Below are positions 6,550-46,247 of a DNA stretch of 64,000 nucleotides, one piece after another. Position numbers and translations under genes: made by a program. Positions within the stretch are counted from its first letter, which is position 1. The number at the start of each line of letters is the position of its first letter. The notes below the pieces were generated by a model. That model did no database searches and was not told where the DNA came from. It saw only the letters and a program-made list of their open reading frames with translations. Source of the stretch: Pseudomonas putida (GTDB taxonomy: Bacteria; Pseudomonadota; Gammaproteobacteria; Pseudomonadales; Pseudomonadaceae); NCBI RefSeq assembly GCF_016406145.1, contig NZ_CP066306.1, positions 3,472,001-3,536,000 of the forward strand, in the 5' to 3' direction.

Positions 6550-7440
6550 ATGAGGTTGTCTCTTGAACAACTGGCCGCTTTTTCTGCGGTCGTCAGTGAG
6601 CGCTCTTTTTCGGCCGCAGCACGCAAATTGGGCAAGTCGCAATCCGCTGTGAGCATTTCCGTTGGCAACCTGGAAATCGATCTGGGAATTACCCTGTTTG
6701 ATCGCAGTCAGCGCTATCCACAACTCACCAATGAAGGCCGGGCCTTGTTGCGTGACGCCGAGGCCATTCTGGGCCAGTGCTGCAACATGGAAAGTCGCGC
6801 GAGCAGCCTGGCGCAGGCGTTGGAGACTGAGCTGGTGATCAGCATCGACGAGGCGATTCCCTATCAGTCCCTTGCACCTGTTCTAGAGGAGTTTTCCCGC
6901 CGCTTCCCCCATGTCGACCTTACTGTGTTGCATCCTTGCGGGCAGGATGTACTGACAATGATCGAAGACAAAAAACTATTGCTTGCCATGATGTGTACCC
7001 GCACTCATTACCCGCGAAATCTGCAATTCATACGCCTTGGCAGCATCACGTTCAGCAACGTCGTCGGCCGCCAACACCCTCTGGTCGCAATGCCCACCGT
7101 CAGCTTCAATCAATTAAGCAACTACCGACAGTTGATCTACCTCCCCTTCCAGGACCGCTTGCCCACCAGTGAATACCTGAATTCACCCAACCATTGGCGT
7201 GTAGAAAGCTATTTGACCTTGATGGGCATGCTGCGCGCAGGCATGGGATGGGCCACAGTGCCCAGGCAACTGATACAAGCGCTGGGTCCCAATGGGGAGT
7301 TTGTGGAACTGCAGCTGGAAGCTTACCCGTACACCGATTGGACGGTAGGCGTCGACCTTGTCTGGTCGTCAGGCTTACGTTTGGGCAAAGCGGGTACCTG
7401 GCTGCGTGAGGCGCTGGGGCGAACGCCGATAGCTACATAA
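6550..7440 (+). CDS. LysR-family regulator, divergent to the nucleobase permease
   Basis: A 296-residue LysR-type regulator with an N-terminal winged helix-turn-helix (about residues 1-65, FSAAARKLGKSQSAVSISVGN is the recognition region) and a periplasmic-binding-like effector domain. GGAG lies 6 bp before the ATG. It is transcribed away from the permease/aminohydrolase pair over a 138-bp region, the usual LysR arrangement, so it likely controls them in response to the ring substrate or a product. That link is inferred from position only. Confidence 0.85.
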   Translation: MRLSLEQLAAFSAVVSERSFSAAARKLGKSQSAVSISVGNLEIDLGITLFDRSQRYPQLTNEGRALLRDAEAILGQCCNMESRASSLAQALETELVISIDEAIPYQSLAPVLEEFSRRFPHVDLTVLHPCGQDVLTMIEDKKLLLAMMCTRTHYPRNLQFIRLGSITFSNVVGRQHPLVAMPTVSFNQLSNYRQLIYLPFQDRLPTSEYLNSPNHWRVESYLTLMGMLRAGMGWATVPRQLIQALGPNGEFVELQLEAYPYTDWTVGVDLVWSSGLRLGKAGTWLREALGRTPIAT

Positions 7441-37622: not shown

Positions 37623-38552
37623 TTGCTCAGTGAACAACGCTTGAAGGGCATTGCGGTTTTCATTTGCGTGGCAGAGGCCGGAAGCTTCACTGCTGCGGCC
37701 GAACGCATGAGCCTGACCACCTCCGCAGTCAGCAAAAGCGTGGCGCGGCTGGAGCAGCGCCTAAATATGAAGCTCTTCGCACGCACGACACGGCGCCTGG
37801 CACTGACCGATACGGGGGCCAATTACTACCAGACCTGCAAGCAGATCCTGGCCAGCCTGGAAGAGGCCGAAATGCAAATGCACAGTGCCCAGACCGAGCC
37901 CTGCGGCCGGGTGCGCATCGACCTGCCGGCGTCATACGGCAAACTGCGGGTGCTACCCCTACTCATCGAGTTCATTGCCGAGCATGAGCTGCTGATGCCA
38001 CATATCACGCTCACAGACCGCTTCGTCGATCCCATCGAGCATGACATCGACATCCTGGTGCGCATTGGCGGGCCGCAGACCTGGCCCCAGGGTGTAGAAC
38101 GGCGGCTGATTGGCATCCAGCAGCACATCTTTTGCGCAGCACCGGGTTATCTGCAACGACGGGGCGTGCCTGAGACGGAACGGGACCTTCATGAGCACGG
38201 ATGCGTGCTTTACGGCAGGACCGACGGCGGTGTGTATCCACTGCACTTCCCAGGTGCTCATGCCAGTGACAGCGAGCAGCGTGTGGTCTCGGGCCGTATT
38301 GCCATCGGTAACGCTGAAGGCCAGCTTGCCATGGTGCTGGCCGGGCTGGGGGTGGCCCAATTGCCCTCCTGGCTGGTGCAGGAACATCTTGACGCTGGCA
38401 CGCTGGTCCAGATCCTGCCTGAGCTGAGTACCATCGGCCTGCCGATCAACGTTGCATGGCTGAAAAGCCGGCAATCGCTTCCTAAAGTAGGCGCATTGGT
38501 CGATGTCATCTGCGCGAGGCTGAGCCAGCAGGCAGCAGCCCAAGCCGGCTAG
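37623..38552 (+). CDS. LysR-family regulator, divergent to the MFS exporter
   Basis: A 309-residue LysR-type regulator. The TTG at 37623 is preferred as start because GGAGG lies 5 bp before it; an earlier in-frame TTG at 37611 overlaps that site. Helix-turn-helix at about residues 15-45 (SFTAAAERMSLTTSAVSKSV) and ARTTRRLALTDTG follow the CrgA/DsdC-like branch. It overlaps the 3' end of the convergent MerR gene by 4 bp at a shared CTAG. Confidence 0.85.
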   Translation: MLSEQRLKGIAVFICVAEAGSFTAAAERMSLTTSAVSKSVARLEQRLNMKLFARTTRRLALTDTGANYYQTCKQILASLEEAEMQMHSAQTEPCGRVRIDLPASYGKLRVLPLLIEFIAEHELLMPHITLTDRFVDPIEHDIDILVRIGGPQTWPQGVERRLIGIQQHIFCAAPGYLQRRGVPETERDLHEHGCVLYGRTDGGVYPLHFPGAHASDSEQRVVSGRIAIGNAEGQLAMVLAGLGVAQLPSWLVQEHLDAGTLVQILPELSTIGLPINVAWLKSRQSLPKVGALVDVICARLSQQAAAQAG

Positions 38553-39496
38553 AGGTGGTGCTCAATGCTTTCCTCCCCTTCTGCACGCTGGGTGGGCGAG
38601 AGCTCCAGCGCCCCCCTGAGCAAGGCATTGAGCATCGCGCCTGCCTCGCCACCCCGCCCATCCAACAGCCTCAGCGGAATTCCCTTCAGTGCAGTGGCCG
38701 ACTCGGCCAGGCCATCACCCAGCAGCGCCAATGGGCAGGCGATATCCATCTGCAAGGCGCGCAGACGATCTGCCAGGCCACGGCTCACAGGGGGCTGCAC
38801 CAGCACCACCAGCGCGGCGGGCGCAATGGCTGCACACAACAGGGGCAATTCCTCCAATGGTTGTTCGCTGCTCAGCACGTCAATACGCTGCTGCTCACTG
38901 CTCAGCAGCAAGCCGTTGCACAGCAGTTCAAGCTCAGCACTGCCCCCTGTATCGGCCAGCAGCACGCGCGGGGCGTTGGCCTGGTTCAACTGCAGGCGCA
39001 GCAGCAACCGGGCGCGCAGAAAGGCATCGAGAAACAGCCACTGGCTACGCTGGCCGTATGAGCTGCCCGACTGTAATGTGCGCCATACAGGCATCAGTAC
39101 GTCGAGCAACACCGTGGTTTTGGGAAACAGCGTGAAAAGCTGCCCGTGAATACCCTCGAGCGCCTGGCCATCGAACGCCTGGGTTGCACGTAGCACGGCA
39201 GCACGCCACGCGGCAAAGCCATCGGCAGCCGGTTCAACCGTTTGCTCGTATGCGTCTCGCCGTCTGGCCAGCATTTCGCTTACTTTGCTGATCGGCAGGC
39301 CACTGGCGGTCCAGCGCAGTATGTCGCGGATGTGCTGAACATCCTGTGCGGTGTAAAGGCGATGACCGCCATCGGTGCGCTGCGGCCGGATCAGGCCATG
39401 CCGCCGCTCCCAGGCACGCAAGGTCACCGGGTTGACTCCGGTCAGGCTGACAACGTCACGCATTGGCAACAGGTCGGTGAAGGTGGCTTCGTTCAT
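38549..39496 (-). CDS. MerR-family light-response regulator, LitR/CarH class without B12 site
   Basis: A 315-residue regulator: MerR winged helix at about residues 10-80 (RDVVSLTGVNPVTLRAWERR, HRLYTAQDVQHI), then a four-helix region and a Rossmann-like C-terminal domain in the CarH/LitR layout. The cobalamin-ligand histidine motif expected in the C-terminal part is absent (ADTGGSAELE stands there), and the Trp/Glu-His helix reads WLFLDAFLR. It therefore fits the class II LitR (PplR) group, which represses light-induced genes and works with a short LOV protein instead of B12. It is divergent from just such a LOV gene. Probable targets are the TGTACA dyads at 40057, 40108 and 46224. Confidence 0.87.
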   Translation of the reverse strand: MNEATFTDLLPMRDVVSLTGVNPVTLRAWERRHGLIRPQRTDGGHRLYTAQDVQHIRDILRWTASGLPISKVSEMLARRRDAYEQTVEPAADGFAAWRAAVLRATQAFDGQALEGIHGQLFTLFPKTTVLLDVLMPVWRTLQSGSSYGQRSQWLFLDAFLRARLLLRLQLNQANAPRVLLADTGGSAELELLCNGLLLSSEQQRIDVLSSEQPLEELPLLCAAIAPAALVVLVQPPVSRGLADRLRALQMDIACPLALLGDGLAESATALKGIPLRLLDGRGGEAGAMLNALLRGALELSPTQRAEGEESIEHHL

Positions 39497-39592: not shown

Positions 39593-40039
39593 ATGATCGA
39601 CGCAAAACTCCTGCAATTGATGGTCGAGGCGTCCAACGACGGCATCGTCATTGCCGAGCAGGAAGGAAACGACAGCATCCTCATCTACGTCAACCCCGCC
39701 TTCGAGCGCCTGACCGGCTACGCAGCCGATGACATTCTCTATCAGGATTGCCGCTTCCTGCAGGGCCAGGACCATGACCAGGAAGCGCTGGATGCCATTC
39801 GCCAGGCCATCCGGGACGGGCGCCCGAGCTGCCAGGTACTGCGCAATTACCGCAAGGACGGCAGCCTGTTCTGGAATGAACTGTCGATTTCGCCAATACG
39901 AAACGAGGCCGATCAATTGACGTATTACATTGGTATACAGCGTGACGTCACGGCCCAAGTGTTCGCCGAGGAGAGAGTACGAGAGCTGGAAGCAGAGGTC
40001 GCCCAGTTAAGGCGACAACTGGATGATAGGGACAGCTGA
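39593..40039 (+). CDS. Short LOV blue-light photoreceptor (PpSB-LOV type)
   Basis: A 148-residue single LOV domain protein with no output domain. The photoactive Cys is residue 53 in YQDCRFLQGQD, and the flavin-contacting NYRKDGSLFWNELSISP is intact. The C-terminal helix AEERVRELEAEVAQLRRQL would form a dimer coiled coil. This is the length and layout of P. putida PpSB1/PpSB2-LOV proteins, whose Cys53 forms the FMN adduct in blue light. AAGGAGG precedes the ATG. Divergent to the MerR regulator, it most likely relays light to it by direct binding. Confidence 0.92.
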   Translation: MIDAKLLQLMVEASNDGIVIAEQEGNDSILIYVNPAFERLTGYAADDILYQDCRFLQGQDHDQEALDAIRQAIRDGRPSCQVLRNYRKDGSLFWNELSISPIRNEADQLTYYIGIQRDVTAQVFAEERVRELEAEVAQLRRQLDDRDS

Positions 40040-40056: not shown

Positions 40057-40080
40057 TGTACAAAATTGTGACCCTGTATA
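40057..40080. promoter_or_regulatory. LitR/PplR-type operator 1, TGTACA-N12-TGTATA
   Basis: TGTACA at 40057-40062 and TGTATA at 40075-40080 are separated by exactly 12 bases. This matches T(G/A)TACA-N12-TGTA(C/T)A, the site I recall for the P. putida class II LitR proteins. It lies 61 bp before the NTF2-like gene. Confidence 0.8.
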
Positions 40081-40107
40081 GCTTTATGCGGTGGAATCGA
40101 CTATACC

Positions 40108-40131
40108 TGTACAAGAAACCATTTTTGTACA
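40108..40131. promoter_or_regulatory. LitR/PplR-type operator 2, TGTACA-N12-TGTACA
   Basis: Perfect 6-12-6 dyad, 51 bp centre-to-centre from operator 1 (about five helical turns), ending 9 bp before the ATG at 40141. It would cover the transcription or translation start region of the six-gene operon. Confidence 0.82.
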
Positions 40132-40140
40132 GGGCCGCGC

Positions 40141-40563
40141 ATGTCCAGCTATCTGCAAACCTTCGCCGAACGCTTTGCCAGCCTCGATGCGAACAATCTC
40201 GACCGTCTGGGTGACTTGTACAGCGAGGATGTCACGTTCCGCGACCCACTGCACAAGATCGACGGGCTGAGCGACCTGCGCGCCTACTTTGCTGAGCTCT
40301 ACGCCAACACCCAGGAGGTGCGTTACACCTTCGAGGGTACCGACGAGGTCCAACCGGGCCACGGCTACATTCGCTGGACCCTGCATTTTCGCCACCCACG
40401 CCTGGCCAACGGGCGCCTGATCAGCCTGCAGGGTTGCAGCCACCTTCTCTGGCACGAACGCGTGCACTTCCATCAAGACTACTTCGACGCCGGTGCACTG
40501 CTTTACGAGCATGTGCCGGTGGTAGGCAGCGCTGTCCGTTGGCTCAAGGGGAGGCTCGCATGA
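40141..40563 (+). CDS. NTF2/SnoaL-like protein, first gene of the light-regulated operon
   Basis: A 140-residue SnoaL/NTF2-fold protein (YLQTFAERFASLDANNLDRL, LYSEDVTFRDPLHKIDGLSDL). Such small cone folds bind hydrophobic ligands or act as isomerase-like enzymes. It is the first gene behind two LitR-type operators, and its stop overlaps the SDR start by 4 bp. Homologues are known as a constant member of this light/ROS lipid cluster, but no enzyme activity is assigned. Confidence 0.83.
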   Translation: MSSYLQTFAERFASLDANNLDRLGDLYSEDVTFRDPLHKIDGLSDLRAYFAELYANTQEVRYTFEGTDEVQPGHGYIRWTLHFRHPRLANGRLISLQGCSHLLWHERVHFHQDYFDAGALLYEHVPVVGSAVRWLKGRLA

Positions 40564-41312
40564 GCCGCTGCTGGCTGACTGGCGCCAGCAGCGGCATCGG
40601 TGCCGCGCTGGCGCAACAGCTGCTGGAACAGGGGCATCAGGTTGCGCTGGGTGCTCGGCAGGCCGAAAACCTGGCGCCGTTGACCGCGCAGTTTCCCCAG
40701 CAGACATTGCTGGCTATCGGCGATATCAGTGACCCTCGGCAGGTCGCTGATGTTGCCGCACACATTGAACGCAGCTGGGGCGGGCTCGACCTGGTGATTC
40801 TCAATGCAGGCACCTGTGAGTACCTGGAACCGGGCCATTTCGACCCGGACCTGGTCGAACGCGTAGTGCGCACCAACCTGATTGGCGTCAGTCACTGCCT
40901 GCACGCTGCCCTGCCCTTGCTGCGGCGTGGCCAACGCCCGCACCTGGTGGTCATCGGCAGCTCGGTGTCCTGGCTGGCGCTGCCCCGTGCCGGGGCCTAC
41001 GGTGCCTCCAAAGCGGCCGTGCGCTACCTGATCGAATCGCTGCGCATCGACCTGGTCAACGAGGGCATCGATGTCACGCTGATCAGCCCTGGCTTTGTCG
41101 ATACGCCATTGACCCGTCGCAATGACTTCCCCATGCCCCAGATCTGGAGTGCAGAACGCGCCGCCAGGCACATTGTCGTGCGCTTACCCAAGCGCCTGCT
41201 AGAAATCAACTTCCCCGGTGTATTCACTGTGGTGCTGCGCCTGCTGGGCGCAATGCCGGTGCGCTGGCGACTGAAGCTAGGCCAGCGCCTGGCACGTAAG
41301 CAACAGGACTGA
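40560..41312 (+). CDS. Short-chain dehydrogenase/reductase
   Basis: A 250-residue classical SDR: TGASSGIG cofactor motif at residues 7-14, NAG near 84, catalytic Ser in GSSVSW and YGASK near 144-148. The C-terminal tail is hydrophobic and basic, suggesting membrane association. ATGA overlap with the preceding gene. Within the operon it probably oxidises or reduces a lipid intermediate made by the methyltransferase and FAD enzyme. Confidence 0.88.
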   Translation: MSRCWLTGASSGIGAALAQQLLEQGHQVALGARQAENLAPLTAQFPQQTLLAIGDISDPRQVADVAAHIERSWGGLDLVILNAGTCEYLEPGHFDPDLVERVVRTNLIGVSHCLHAALPLLRRGQRPHLVVIGSSVSWLALPRAGAYGASKAAVRYLIESLRIDLVNEGIDVTLISPGFVDTPLTRRNDFPMPQIWSAERAARHIVVRLPKRLLEINFPGVFTVVLRLLGAMPVRWRLKLGQRLARKQQD

Positions 41313-41319
41313 AACAGAC

Positions 41320-42567
41320 ATGCGCATCGCAATCATCGGTAGCGGTATTGCCGGCCTTACTTGTGCCTATCTGCTCTCTCGGCGGCATGAAGTCACTGTA
41401 TTCGAGGCCGCCGACTGGATTGGTGGCCACACGCATACTGTCGATGTCCAATGGGGTGGCCAACAGTACGCAGTGGACACCGGTTTTATCGTCTTCAACG
41501 ACTGGACCTACCCGCACTTCATCCGCCTGCTCGACCAGCTCAAAGTTGCCTCCAGGCCCACTGAAATGAGCTTTTCGGTACATGACCCGCGTAGCGGTTT
41601 CGAATACAACGGCCATGACCTGAACACGCTGTTCGCCCAGCGCAGCAACCTGTTATCGCCAGGCTTCTGGGGCATGCTGCGCGATATCCTGCGCTTCAAC
41701 CGCAAGGTCCTTGCCGACCTGGACAGCCAGCGTATCGACGAAGCCACCACCCTGGGTGGCTACCTGCAGACGCAGGGATATGGCCAGCGCTTCATCGACC
41801 ACTACATCGTGCCGATGGGCTCGGCTATCTGGTCGATGTCACGCGCCGACATGCTCGGTTTTCCGCTGCAGTTCTTCGTGCGCTTTTGCCGTAACCACGG
41901 CCTTCTATCGGTGAGCAACCGCCCGCAATGGCGGGTGATCGAGGGTGGCTCGCGCAGTTACCTGGCACCGTTGTGCAAGCCATTTGCCGAGCGCATCCGC
42001 CTCAACTGCCCTGTTGACCGTGTCAGCCGTGACGAAGGCGGCGTGACCGTGTTCAGCGCAGCCGGCAGCGAGCGCTTCGACAACGTGGTGTTCGCCTGCC
42101 ACAGCGATCAGGCTTTGGCCTTGCTGGAGGCGCCCAGTGCCGATGAGCGCGCAGTACTCGGCGCCATCACCTATGCCAGTAACGATGTGGTGCTGCACAC
42201 CGACACCCGACTGCTGCCAACCCGACGCAAAGCCTGGGCCAGTTGGAACTACCGACTCGGCGGCCCGCAGCAGGCACCGGCCGCGCTGACCTACGCGATG
42301 AACATCCTGCAAGGTATCGAAGCGCCGGTGACCTTCTGCGTGAGCCTGAACCAGACCGCGCTGGTGGACCCGACGCAGATCCTCGCCCGCTTCAACTACG
42401 CGCACCCGCAGTACAGCCTCGTCGCCCTCGCGGCCCAGGCCCGACAGGCTGAACTGCAGGGCCGACAGCACAGCTACTTCTGCGGCGCCTACTGGGCCAA
42501 CGGCTTCCACGAGGACGGCGTGGTCAGCGCCTTGAAAGTGGCTGAGTTTTTTGGGGAAAGCTTGTGA
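41320..42567 (+). CDS. FAD-dependent amine-oxidase-like oxidoreductase
   Basis: A 415-residue flavoprotein of the amine oxidase/desaturase superfamily: IAIIGSGIAGLTCAYLLSRR then VFEAADWIGGHTHTVD dinucleotide motifs, and a C-terminal FAD segment YFCGAYWANGFHEDGVVSAL. Always found next to DUF1365 and a Cfa-type gene. Homologues in this cluster take part in modifying membrane fatty acids (including furan fatty acid chemistry in alpha-proteobacteria), so a fatty-acyl desaturase or oxidase is likely. 7 bp after the SDR gene; its stop overlaps DUF1365. Confidence 0.88.
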   Translation: MRIAIIGSGIAGLTCAYLLSRRHEVTVFEAADWIGGHTHTVDVQWGGQQYAVDTGFIVFNDWTYPHFIRLLDQLKVASRPTEMSFSVHDPRSGFEYNGHDLNTLFAQRSNLLSPGFWGMLRDILRFNRKVLADLDSQRIDEATTLGGYLQTQGYGQRFIDHYIVPMGSAIWSMSRADMLGFPLQFFVRFCRNHGLLSVSNRPQWRVIEGGSRSYLAPLCKPFAERIRLNCPVDRVSRDEGGVTVFSAAGSERFDNVVFACHSDQALALLEAPSADERAVLGAITYASNDVVLHTDTRLLPTRRKAWASWNYRLGGPQQAPAALTYAMNILQGIEAPVTFCVSLNQTALVDPTQILARFNYAHPQYSLVALAAQARQAELQGRQHSYFCGAYWANGFHEDGVVSALKVAEFFGESL

Positions 42568-43376
42568 TCAGCAGCCTGTGCCACGGCTGGGTCAGCCATA
42601 GGCGCCTGACACCGCGCCCGCATGCCTTCCGCTATCGGATCGGCATGTTCTACCTGGACCTGGATGAACAACCCCGCCTGCTCAGCCTCAGCCGCTGGCT
42701 AGGGCGGTCGCGACTGGCGCCGCTGAGCTGGCGCGAAAGCGATTACCTGCCGGCGCTTACCCGCAATGGCATGCCATTGGCCCAGGCCGCTCGGCAATTG
42801 GTCGGCCAGGCCACCGGGCAAACGCCTGAAGGCGCCGTACACCTGCTAACCCAGCCGCGCTGCTGGGGGCTTTCGTTCAACCCGGTGAGTGTCTACTTCT
42901 GCCACGACCACGCCGGCCAGCTGCAGGCGATCCTGCTGGAGGTGCGCAACACGCCATGGCGCGAGCGCTTTCACTACGTATTGCCGGTGCAAGACGGCCT
43001 GTCTACCGGGTTTTCCGTGGCCAAGGCGTTCCATGTGTCGCCGTTCATGCCCCTGGACATGGAGTATCGCCTGCGTTTCTTGCTTGATGCGCGGCGCGTT
43101 CACGTCCACATGGAAAATTGGCGCAAGGGGCAAAAGGTGTTCGATGCCGACCTTGCGCTGCAACGCGGGCCGCTGGATCGCGCCGCCCTGCACCGCCATA
43201 TCCTGAGCTTCCCCTGGATGAGCCTGCGTACCGTAGCGGCCATCTACTGGCAGGCCTTGCAGCTACTGCTCAAGCGCACGCCCATCCACGACCATAGCGC
43301 CAGCCTGGGTAACCTGAGCCTGGGCCAAGCCGCCTCCAAGGAGTTAGATGATGACCGAGCCCACCCTGAGCGTTAG
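42564..43376 (+). CDS. DUF1365 protein
   Basis: A 270-residue protein of the DUF1365 family (ISSLCHGWVSHRRLTPRPHAF, FNPVSVYFCHD, KAFHVSPFMPLDMEYRLRF). The start is GTG with a 4-bp overlap to the FAD gene, and the end overlaps the methyltransferase by 26 bp. The family is almost always paired with the flavoprotein and Cfa gene; its biochemical role is unknown. Confidence 0.88.
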   Translation: MISSLCHGWVSHRRLTPRPHAFRYRIGMFYLDLDEQPRLLSLSRWLGRSRLAPLSWRESDYLPALTRNGMPLAQAARQLVGQATGQTPEGAVHLLTQPRCWGLSFNPVSVYFCHDHAGQLQAILLEVRNTPWRERFHYVLPVQDGLSTGFSVAKAFHVSPFMPLDMEYRLRFLLDARRVHVHMENWRKGQKVFDADLALQRGPLDRAALHRHILSFPWMSLRTVAAIYWQALQLLLKRTPIHDHSASLGNLSLGQAASKELDDDRAHPER

Positions 43377-44610
43377 CAAGTCCACCGGCCTGACACCGCT
43401 GCTTGGCAACCTGGCCAGAACCGCCGTGCTGGCCCAGTTGCGCGGCTTGGCCCGCGGCAGTTTGCGAGTCATCTGCAATGATCGTCAGTGGACCTTCGGT
43501 GAAGCCGGCAGTGCTCTGCACGCCCAGGTCGAAATCGTTGACGAGGCCGCTTGGAGCCTGGTCGCCAGTAATGGCTCGATCGGCGCCGGGGAAGGCTATA
43601 TCCATGGCTACTGGCGCACACCCGACCTGGCCGCAGTCACCCGTGTGTTCGTCGCCAACCTCGAGGTGCTCGATGCCATGGAGGGCGGGTTGGCCCGCCT
43701 GGCACGCCCGGCCCTGCACTTGCTGCACCGGCTCAACCGCAACAGCCGACGCGGTTCACGGCGCAACATCCTGGCCCATTACGACCTGGGCAACGCCTTG
43801 TTCGAACGCCTGCTCGACCCAACCATGATGTACTCGGCGGCGCAGTTCGAGAGCGCCGAGCAAACCCTGGAGCAGGCGCAACTGAACAAGCTTGAACGCA
43901 TCTGCCAGAAGCTCGAACTCCAACCCCACGAACACCTGCTGGAAATCGGCACCGGCTGGGGCAGCCTGGCCATCCATGCTGCCACTAAGTATGGCTGCCG
44001 CGTCACCACCACGACGCTGTCCGAGGCGCAGTACGCCCATACCCTGCAACGGGTGCAAGCGCTGGGCCTTACGCAACGCATCACGGTGCTGCGCGAGGAC
44101 TACCGCGACCTGAGCGGGCGCTTCGACAAGCTGGTTTCGATCGAGATGATCGAAGCCGTCGGCCACCGTTACCTGCCCACCTACTTCCGCCAGTGCGCCG
44201 CACTGCTCAAGGAGGATGGCCTGATGCTGCTGCAGGCCATCACCATTCGCGACCAGCGTTACGCCCAGGCGCGGCGTTCGGTGGACTTCATCCAGCGCTA
44301 CATATTCCCAGGCGGTGCGCTGCCATCACTGAGCGTGCTGCTGGACACCGCCAGCCGCAAGACCGGGTTGAACCTGTTGCATATGGAGGACTTTGGCCAG
44401 GACTATGCGCGCACCTTGCGCCACTGGCGCGATAACCTGCGCCAGGCGCGCACGGCACTCAAGGAACTGGGTTACGACGAAACGTTCCAGCGCCTGTGGG
44501 AGTTCTACCTGTGTTACTGCCAGGGTGGTTTCGAGGAGCGTGCCATTGGCGTGGCGCAATTGCTGTGGGCCGCGCCGCAAGCCCGTCGGGCGCCTTTGCC
44601 AGGTGCCTGA
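43351..44610 (+). CDS. Cfa-type SAM-dependent fatty acyl methyltransferase
   Basis: A 419-residue protein of the cyclopropane-fatty-acid synthase family: YDLGNALFERLLDPTMMYSA, SAM motif LEIGTGWGSLAIHAA, the SLEAQYA-like SEAQYAHTL stretch, and EMIEAVGHRYLPTYF. It adds a methyl or methylene group from SAM to unsaturated acyl chains in phospholipids. ATGs at 43348 and 43351; the second has AAGGAG at better spacing. In this cluster it is not the housekeeping stress Cfa but the light/ROS paralogue, and it may start furan or methylated fatty acid synthesis. Confidence 0.9.
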   Translation: MTEPTLSVSKSTGLTPLLGNLARTAVLAQLRGLARGSLRVICNDRQWTFGEAGSALHAQVEIVDEAAWSLVASNGSIGAGEGYIHGYWRTPDLAAVTRVFVANLEVLDAMEGGLARLARPALHLLHRLNRNSRRGSRRNILAHYDLGNALFERLLDPTMMYSAAQFESAEQTLEQAQLNKLERICQKLELQPHEHLLEIGTGWGSLAIHAATKYGCRVTTTTLSEAQYAHTLQRVQALGLTQRITVLREDYRDLSGRFDKLVSIEMIEAVGHRYLPTYFRQCAALLKEDGLMLLQAITIRDQRYAQARRSVDFIQRYIFPGGALPSLSVLLDTASRKTGLNLLHMEDFGQDYARTLRHWRDNLRQARTALKELGYDETFQRLWEFYLCYCQGGFEERAIGVAQLLWAAPQARRAPLPGA

Positions 44611-44612
44611 AC

Positions 44613-45101
44613 ATGTCACGTACCTGGCTTATCGCCAACGCAGTGTGGTTGCAGGCTGGCTGGTGGGTGTGTGTACTCGGCGCCCACAAGCCCTGGCTGC
44701 TTGCTCTGGTACCGTTAGGCCTGGCGCTGCATTTGGGTTATTGCCATGAGCGTCGCGCAGAAGTGCGTGCGCTGCTGGCGATAGGGCTTGCAGGATGTCT
44801 ATTGGACAGTCTGCTGGGGGCATTGGGGGTATTCGCTTTTGCCCAGTGGCCCCTGCCCGGCTGGCTGGCCCTTATGTGGCTGGTGTTGGCCAGCGGGTTA
44901 CGCCACAGCCTGGCTTGGGCTGCCCGCCCTCTGTGGCTCGGGGGGATGCTTGGACTTTTCGGTGGGCCGTTGGCCTACCTGGCGGGGGCGCGGCTAGCCG
45001 GTGTGGAACTGCCGATGGGTCCCCTGCCTACCGCCCTGATACTGGCACCGATCTGGGCGGTGGCATTTCCGTTGATGCTACGTCTGGCGAGAGCAGCCTG
45101 A
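44613..45101 (+). CDS. DUF2878 membrane protein
   Basis: A 162-residue integral membrane protein with five or six hydrophobic segments (WLIANAVWLQAGWWVCVLG at the start), DUF2878 family. It starts 2 bp after the methyltransferase stop and ends the six-gene operon. It meets the convergent DUF3833 gene with 1 bp between stops. Function unknown; it may hold the lipid-modifying proteins at the membrane. Confidence 0.82.
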   Translation: MSRTWLIANAVWLQAGWWVCVLGAHKPWLLALVPLGLALHLGYCHERRAEVRALLAIGLAGCLLDSLLGALGVFAFAQWPLPGWLALMWLVLASGLRHSLAWAARPLWLGGMLGLFGGPLAYLAGARLAGVELPMGPLPTALILAPIWAVAFPLMLRLARAA

Positions 45102-45102
45102 G

Positions 45103-45639
45103 TCACGGCGATGTCGTTGGCAGGCGGCGGAAAAACAAGGTGATCTGCCCGACTTCCACACCCAATTTGCGCATGCTCGAGCGGTTGATCAGGGTGTCTT
45201 CATCCATCAGGTACATCCAGTCATCGATATCCATTTCCCAATGCCGGCCGTCGACCGGCAGGTCCAGCCGGTAGCGCCAGTGCAAGGCATTGCCCGCAAC
45301 CTCGCCGCGGGCCTCGCCGATCACATCGCCCGCACGTCCACGCCAGCGCCCGGGGCCGTCCGGGGTCAGGGTCCAGATGCGCCGCTGACGCGTACCGTCG
45401 CTGTACACAAAGTGCTCGTCAAGGATCAGCCGGTCACCTTCGCGGCGGCTGTCGATGCGCACATCGAAGCGTTTGACCACCTCCCCCGAGCGATTCTGGA
45501 ACATGCCCCAGGCCTGCACCGGCACGGAGAAGAACGTGACCAGGTCGAGCGCCGGCTTTTCACGGGCGTAATGGTCGACTTCGACATTGCCGCAACTGCC
45601 GAGCAGCAAGCAGCCAACCAATAGCAACACTCTTCGCAT
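45103..45639 (-). CDS. DUF3833 lipoprotein
   Basis: A 178-residue protein with a lipoprotein signal (lipobox LLGSC, Cys near residue 16), DUF3833 family (FFSVPVQAWGMFQNRSGEVVK, RQRRIWTLTPDGPGRWRGRAGD). The ATG at 45639 has AAGGAG 7 bp upstream. It follows the chalcone-isomerase-like gene by 2 bp. Family role unknown; found with DUF2878 and chalcone-isomerase-like proteins in the light cluster. Confidence 0.87.
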   Translation of the reverse strand: MRRVLLLVGCLLLGSCGNVEVDHYAREKPALDLVTFFSVPVQAWGMFQNRSGEVVKRFDVRIDSRREGDRLILDEHFVYSDGTRQRRIWTLTPDGPGRWRGRAGDVIGEARGEVAGNALHWRYRLDLPVDGRHWEMDIDDWMYLMDEDTLINRSSMRKLGVEVGQITLFFRRLPTTSP

Positions 45640-45641
45640 GT

Positions 45642-46196
45642 TCAATCTCCTTGATCATTACCGGCCAGGCCGAGCAGGCGCTGGCGCAATTGAGGGTCCC
45701 GGGCCCGCGGGTCCAGCCAGATGGCAAAAAATGCCCTGGCAAACGCCGGGTCGGCGATTTCGCGACGCAGTTGACCATCGACATAGAACCGGGAGCCCTG
45801 CCCCGGCAGGTACACCCCGGTGATGCGCATGCCCGGGCGCACATCGACGAACGCTTCATTCATAGCTTGCTCCCAACGCGCAAGAGTGGCCTCGGGTAAA
45901 GGACGGTCGCTCAGGCGACGCATTTCATCCAGACTGGCCTGCACCAACGCCTCGCGTGATAACCCCCGGTGGTAAAGAAGTTCCAGGGCAAACGGCTCAC
46001 TCCAGCCCTGCGGCGAGCCGGCGCTCCACAAACGGGCGGTATAGACACGCAGGCCAAACCAGGTGAACTCACCGCTGCCGACGCTGCGCGCCTCGGGCAC
46101 CGCTGGCCGCCAGTCCGCCACCGCGGGTGGCATGACAGCAAGCGCAGCGGCAAGCACGAACAGATTGAGGGCTGGGATAGTGCTTCGCATGGCCAT
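45642..46196 (-). CDS. Chalcone-isomerase-like exported protein
   Basis: A 184-residue protein with a signal peptide (to about residue 28, AVADW) and a bacterial chalcone-isomerase-like domain (GSGEFTWFGLRVYTARLW, FALELLYHRGLSREALVQAS, FAIWLDPRARDPQLRQRLLG). The fold binds fatty acids in plant relatives, and no flavonoid is expected here. First gene of a two-gene operon with DUF3833, behind a perfect LitR-type operator 28-51 bp upstream. Envelope lipid binding or modification is a reasonable guess. Confidence 0.83.
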   Translation of the reverse strand: MAMRSTIPALNLFVLAAALAVMPPAVADWRPAVPEARSVGSGEFTWFGLRVYTARLWSAGSPQGWSEPFALELLYHRGLSREALVQASLDEMRRLSDRPLPEATLARWEQAMNEAFVDVRPGMRITGVYLPGQGSRFYVDGQLRREIADPAFARAFFAIWLDPRARDPQLRQRLLGLAGNDQGD

Positions 46197-46223
46197 ACTC
46201 TGAAGACCGGAATATCCAAATAT

Positions 46224-46247
46224 TGTACAAGTATATTTTCATGTACA
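46224..46247. promoter_or_regulatory. LitR/PplR-type operator 3, TGTACA-N12-TGTACA
   Basis: A perfect 6-12-6 dyad 28 bp before the chalcone-isomerase-like start. On the minus strand TTGTAC and TACAAT inside it resemble -35/-10 boxes with about 15-bp spacing, so a bound repressor would cover the promoter. It links this operon to the operators at 40057 and 40108. Confidence 0.82.

Follow-up and report, generated by a model that had tools for sequence, protein, structure and literature searches.

The systems closest to the locus described here are the PmlR2/PmSB-LOV proteins of Pseudomonas mendocina and the PplR1-3/PpSB1,2-LOV proteins of P. putida KT2440. In P. mendocina, the class II LitR regulator PmlR2 binds two TGTACA-N12-TGTACA sites at a single promoter, one over the -35 element and the other past the transcription start but ahead of the start codon; PmlR2 represses transcription in vitro, and the blue-light-activated short LOV protein PmSB-LOV binds its N-terminal half and releases it from the DNA (PMC9758184). 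According to the available parts of the same article, phrB and ufaM are light-induced in P. mendocina, the ufaM cluster by 25- to 33-fold, pmlR2 (1.4-1.5) and pmSB-LOV (0.9-1.1) hardly respond to light, and P. putida KT2440 has 19 light-inducible genes, two short LOV proteins and three LitR proteins acting cooperatively. The present analysis deals with a stretch of 64,000 bases of another P. putida genome (GCF_016406145.1, contig NZ_CP066306.1, positions 3,472,001 to 3,536,000), called the window below, in which a MerR gene and a short LOV gene are followed by a six-gene operon and by a convergent pair of genes encoding a chalcone-isomerase-like protein and a DUF3833 protein (Table 1). It is highly likely that the operon and the pair are both preceded by operators of class II LitR repressors and are transcribed together when blue light releases these repressors. 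The switch itself is already known; the pair and a set of signalling genes are probably further members of its regulon, and what would be novel is a proposed branch reaching genes for the second messenger cyclic di-guanosine monophosphate (c-di-GMP), along with the geometry proposed for the operator.

The pattern TRTACA-N12-TGTAYA occurs exactly three times in the window, whereas in 100 dinucleotide shuffles it occurred 0.01 times on average and never more than once. The earlier note, made from the letters of the window, had claimed three dyads with a spacing of exactly 12, two of them located before the six-gene operon and one before the pair: the exact scan bears out their letters and spacing, and the gene coordinates bear out their placement, since the space from the stop codon of the LOV gene (40039) to the start of the operon (40141) holds sites 1 and 2, and 27 bases separate the third site, at 46224-46247, from the downstream start codon of the chalcone-isomerase-like gene (46196). 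The note had also recognized them as LitR-type sites, rightly in that all three match the class II operator consensus T(G/A)TACA-N12-TGTA(C/T)A, and they are described here as putative class II LitR-type operators. When up to three mismatches were tolerated, 28 matches were found in the window versus 11.2 expected, so that the information is carried by the near-exact sites only. In the whole genome (5,854,781 bases), 10 sites were found and the reversed control pattern gave 0; the sites were listed for both strands, and each of them is therefore listed twice, the consensus being its own reverse complement. The idea of a regulon made up of two operons thus held insofar as both gene groups are preceded by operators, but the regulon is larger than this.

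The scan confirmed 391 relatives of the chalcone-isomerase-like gene, and the conservation of the operator before the pair was analyzed in the best 80 of them, each taken with flanks of up to 10 kb in both directions. A consensus site was present within 200 base pairs (bp) upstream of this gene in 39 of the 80 relatives, and before the gene that opens the six-gene operon in 35 of 39 loci. The spacing is specific: the exact site with N12 was found before the pair in 24/80 loci, whereas other spacings from 8 to 17 gave at most 3; the consensus with spacers of 11 and 13 to 16 occurred at the pair 3 to 7 times, versus 39 times at N12, and with spacers of N8 to N10 it was absent from both the pair set and the six-gene operon set. 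The chalcone-isomerase-like gene accounts for 29 non-redundant operator sites, and the background in the remainder of the same loci amounts to 11 matches in 1,462,273 bases. No N12 site with at most one mismatch was detected upstream of the LOV (0/33), MerR (0/32), DUF3833 (0/66) or CFA (0/40) genes, and the lack of an operator before the sensor genes is in keeping with the finding that their expression in P. mendocina stays constant. Among 26 loci with flanks of 9 kb or more in both directions and no MerR, LOV or first operon gene in them, the operator was retained in 8 (6 of the 12 with at least 60% identity), including one locus (L101) with DUF2878 beside the pair. The operator thus accompanies the pair in part of the lineage even when the two genes are separate from the sensor genes, and these sequence comparisons indicate that the pair is very probably under the control of the LOV-LitR switch.

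At the six-gene promoter, 32/39 relatives have a TTGACT (-35) element that overlaps site 1 and immediately precedes its right half, and TANNNT occurs 16 bases past TTGACT, again in 32/39. The window shares with 22 of the 25 relatives carrying two consensus sites a distance of 51 from the start of site 1 to that of site 2, and this two-site layout matches that published for P6650 (PMC9758184, in the parts available). At the pair, a -10-like TATACT lies on the minus strand inside the operator, and the relatives show a TATNCT-like -10 element inside theirs. In the dark, one or more of three LitR proteins would be bound at these operators, sites 1 and 2 flanking and covering the six-gene lipid operon's promoter, and the third site covering that of the pair. 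Blue light would lead to a flavin-cysteine adduct in a short LOV protein, and the lit protein would bind the DNA-binding half of LitR and lift it off the DNA, upon which both gene groups would be transcribed together. By analogy, the mechanism described in P. mendocina would hold in the present strain, and for the pair as well.

Sequence and structure comparisons show the families of the two proteins encoded beside the operators. The MerR protein matches MerR_1 with an expectation value (E) of 4.5e-15, and its family profile matches Thermus CarH over profile positions 7-232 with an E of about 1e-25. Its AlphaFold2 model (predicted local distance difference test score, pLDDT, 83.0; predicted template modelling score 0.63) matches full-length CarH 5c8f (E 2.0e-13) and, in the case of the CarH cobalamin domain alone, shows a target template modelling score of about 0.73. 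This protein has the N-terminal MerR domain and the CarH-type four-helix bundle of class II LitR regulators. When its profile was aligned to CarH of Thermus, it showed no counterpart to the Wx9EH residues (Trp, Glu and His) or to the later His. Judging from this alignment, it lacks the B12-ligand motifs, as class II proteins do, and it does not fit the class I LitR/CarH proteins, which have the Wx9EH motif and bind B12. In print, the C-terminal domain of class II LitR proteins is said to resemble no known domain; from the model, the C-terminal half of the present protein is predicted to be a worn B12-binding Rossmann-type fold. The LOV protein consists of 148 amino acids with one PAS/LOV domain matching PDB 7a6p at an E of 2.5e-81, carries the photoactive cysteine within DCRFLQ and has no effector domain, as is typical of the short LOV photoreceptors.

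Several observations weigh against this picture. Pfam B12-binding_2 does not match the MerR protein of the window even at an E of 10, unlike a paralogue (in L015), which it does match, and the NCBIfam CarH score is 70.3, versus a cut-off of 400 bits. The six-gene promoter of the window does not have the TTGACT and TANNCT of its relatives, and a good core promoter is not recognisable there; in the window and in one relative (L075), the core elements have drifted while both operators have been kept. The consensus site is absent before the pair in 41 of the 80 relatives, including 9 of the 39 with at least 65% identity, and its distribution is limited to part of the lineage: it was found in 30/39 relatives with at least 65% identity, 6/17 with 60-65% and 3/24 below 60%. 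These absences, which involve 21 of the 24 most distant relatives, are what might be expected if only the six-gene operon were controlled by light and the site before the chalcone-isomerase-like gene were a relic or a weak site. We take this to be improbable in view of the preference for N12, the number of non-redundant sites, the rarity of background matches, and the persistence of the operator in detached pairs. The earlier suggestion that the pair belongs to the same response can therefore be upheld on the strength of the conserved operator, but with a link that is lineage-limited.

Which protein acts at which site is a different matter. The genome contains two genes for short LOV proteins and three for LitR-like MerR proteins, and the DNA-binding domains of the latter are so alike (34 to 41 of 68 residues identical) that the acting protein cannot be assigned for each site. 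The sites may serve another paralogue (PplR1- or PplR3-like) instead of the adjoining MerR protein, proximity being no guide, and we regard this as a serious possibility, slightly short of an even chance: the three P. putida proteins have been reported to act cooperatively (PMC9758184, as far as available), nothing decisive speaks against it, and it is compatible with the regulon, in which it would alter only which protein sits at which site. What was previously said of the regulator of this region was thus correct as regards a protein with the CarH/LitR fold, free of B12 motifs and encoded beside a short LOV gene, but the operators cannot be attributed to this particular protein. Since TGTACA is a short palindrome and the binding of LitR here is a prediction, the sites might also belong to some unrelated TGTACA-recognising regulator; LexA, Fur and others with similar half-sites were among those considered. 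This is very improbable, however, because the spacing, the two-site layout and the target genes are as footprinted for class II LitR (PMC9758184, in the parts available), and because other sites in the genome precede folE-, cryB- and photolyase-type genes.

Because TGTACA is a palindrome, the site can be read either as a direct or as an inverted repeat, and the abstract of Sumi et al. 2020 on P. putida KT2440 reportedly terms it a direct repeat; the variants found here favour an inverted one. In the 44 unique sites with one substitution in the loci collected to that point, many of whose sites share a common ancestry, the outer G (the second base from the outside) was changed to A in 30 cases and its inner mirror C to T in 0, and the outer change was observed on both the left and the right halves in each of three groups. 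The variant positions of the half-sites thus point outward (30 to 0), which argues that the operator is an inverted repeat of CarH-type half-sites and makes the direct-repeat reading less likely. In the inward direction, each half reads TnnACA and tolerates changes at the n positions, and it fits the CarH half-site nAnnTnnACAn, which in CarH occurs as tandem direct repeats (PMC8156234 and PMC9304148, both in the parts available). The flanks give a mixed picture. The A+T fraction is 0.91 and 0.90 outside the halves versus 0.67 and 0.72 inside. For an A located outside the right half at a distance of three bases, the inverted and direct readings scored 5/22 versus 8/22 at the pair sites, which does not help the inverted reading, 13/25 versus 12/25 at the operon promoter and 24/39 versus 6/39 elsewhere, such single positions being mixed and the -4 position at the pair being confounded by the -10 element. 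The symmetry of the interior about the dyad, a weak one that 33 of 2000 shuffles reach, is likewise unhelpful. Taken together, the sequences favour a class II LitR operator consisting of two CarH-type half-sites facing each other. The regulator fold and the half-site are shared with the class I CarH/LitR of Thermus thermophilus and others. CarH, however, combines B12 with 11-bp direct repeats in tandem, whereas the present half-sites face one another at a distance of 18 bp and the regulator has no counterpart of Wx9EH. In some of the 40 consensus sites at the pair, an extra TRTACA half-site was observed upstream of the operator, with a spacer of 14 in 2, 15 in 7 and 16 in 2 cases (L082, L083, L086, L098, L102, L105, L108, L110, L111, L116 and L120); its position, 14 to 16 bases upstream, suggests that it is a candidate third contact.

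Of the seven genomic sites outside the window, some lie before a DCC1-like/FolE/DUF3429 group, a cryB-type photolyase-related region, a flavin adenine dinucleotide (FAD) oxidoreductase gene and a RudS/MerR/photolyase group, all of which agree with published targets. Of the rest, two are located 136 and 513 bases ahead of a short EAL gene, and one lies before a GAF-EAL gene. An exact operator before the GAF-EAL gene was identified in 7 of the 10 genomes carrying a close orthologue, 398 genomes having been searched, and the three orthologue-bearing genomes without it there carry one or two operators genome-wide; in G117, one of the two operators present genome-wide is that at the GAF-EAL gene. 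In the present strain, a second site with one mismatch lies about 85 bp further upstream of the GAF-EAL operator (near L014:5432), and the EAL signature residues seem by eye to be intact. As for the short EAL gene, a consensus site was found within about 140 bases upstream in 3 of 35 loci (L185, L193 and L213), and two further loci have two-mismatch sites only; as a conserved target, this gene is weak and patchy. We see roughly equal chances for and against the proposal that the LOV-LitR switch directly controls c-di-GMP phosphodiesterase genes in addition to the envelope pair, via inverted CarH half-sites, thereby going back to the dyad geometry usual among MerR proteins in place of the tandem direct repeats of CarH. 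In a more distant genome (G020), a consensus operator (C1:4057147-4057170) was noted 196 bases before a GAF-EAL homologue with 36% identity; no short LOV match was obtained in this genome at an E of 1e-30.

Table 1. Genes and putative operators in the window, and operators of the c-di-GMP genes elsewhere in the genome.
Feature	Position	Strand	Basis or remarks
MerR-family regulator, class II LitR (PplR2-like)	38549..39496	-	Pfam MerR_1, CarH profile 3whp/5c8d, model
Short LOV blue-light receptor (PpSB2-LOV-like), Cys53	39593..40039	+	PAS_9, PDB 7a6p
Operator site 1, six-gene operon	40057..40080	.	TGTACA-N12-TGTATA, pattern scan
Operator site 2, six-gene operon	40108..40131	.	TGTACA-N12-TGTACA, ends 9 bases before ATG 40141
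SnoaL_2/NTF2-like, first gene of six-gene operon	40141..40563	+	Domain match
Short-chain dehydrogenase	40560..41312	+	Domain match
FAD-dependent amine-oxidase-like oxidoreductase	41320..42567	+	Domain match
DUF1365	42564..43376	+	Domain match
CFA-synthase-family methyltransferase	43348..44610	+	CMAS domain match
DUF2878, last gene of six-gene operon	44613..45101	+	Domain match
DUF3833	45103..45639	-	Domain match; N-terminus lipoprotein-signal-like (LLGSC, by eye)
Chalcone-isomerase-like, N-terminal signal-like helix	45642..46196	-	Chalcone_3; model pLDDT 89.3
Operator of chalcone-isomerase-like/DUF3833 pair	46224..46247	.	TGTACA-N12-TGTACA
GAF-EAL operator, exact	L014:5347-5370 = G000 C1:3837346-3837369		Followed by the gene (C1:3835453-3837273), then a PAS-PAS-MCP gene
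Short EAL gene operators, two exact	L013:6508-6531, 6885-6908 = G000 C1:3567507, 3567884		Followed by the gene (C1:3566573-3567370), then GAF-GGDEF and PAS-MCP genes

The gene order in the window is MerR (on the minus strand), short LOV, the six-gene operon and then the convergent DUF3833 and chalcone-isomerase-like genes, the two groups facing each other with stops at 45101 and 45103. As in the PmlR2/PmSB-LOV system, the sites are of the TGTACA-N12-TGTACA type, two at the six-gene promoter, and the MerR gene adjoins a short LOV gene; as in P. putida KT2440, there are three LitR-like proteins, two short LOV proteins and T(G/A)TACA-N12-TGTA(C/T)A sites. In P. mendocina, however, the lipid genes belong to a nine-gene operon with pmlR1 and phrB, whereas here they come after the LOV gene and converge with the pair; judging by its position and family, the methyltransferase would correspond to UfaM (PMC9758184, in the parts available). 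There is no mention of chalcone in the available text of that article, and the available part of PMC11014904 gives the PP_0738-PP_0742 cluster and nothing on the pair. The nearest named relative of the chalcone-isomerase-like protein is that of P. putida HAI-2 (89% identity). Its model matches the chalcone-isomerase and fatty-acid-binding folds, AtFAP1 4doo being the best structural match (E 3.8e-7, 12% identity), and its sequence showed no match with solved structures, the three hits obtained being chance ones with an E of 0.18 or worse. Since it has a signal-like N-terminus and a lipoprotein-like partner, our guess is that the pair might handle envelope lipids, which would fit the adjoining fatty-acid operon.

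Non-phototrophic Pseudomonas respond to blue light. The conserved operator marks targets without any need for experiments, and it adds to the known ones an envelope pair that may handle lipids, next to an operon making modified fatty acids. If the proposed half-site geometry is right, it shows how class II LitR dimers sit on the DNA and how they differ in this respect from CarH, which is also relevant to those using LitR/LOV parts as light switches. If the c-di-GMP branch is real, the switch reaches past DNA repair, pterins and lipids: blue light would lower c-di-GMP by derepression of the GAF-EAL gene and, in fewer genomes, of the short EAL gene, and would thus link light to the choice between swimming and life on surfaces.

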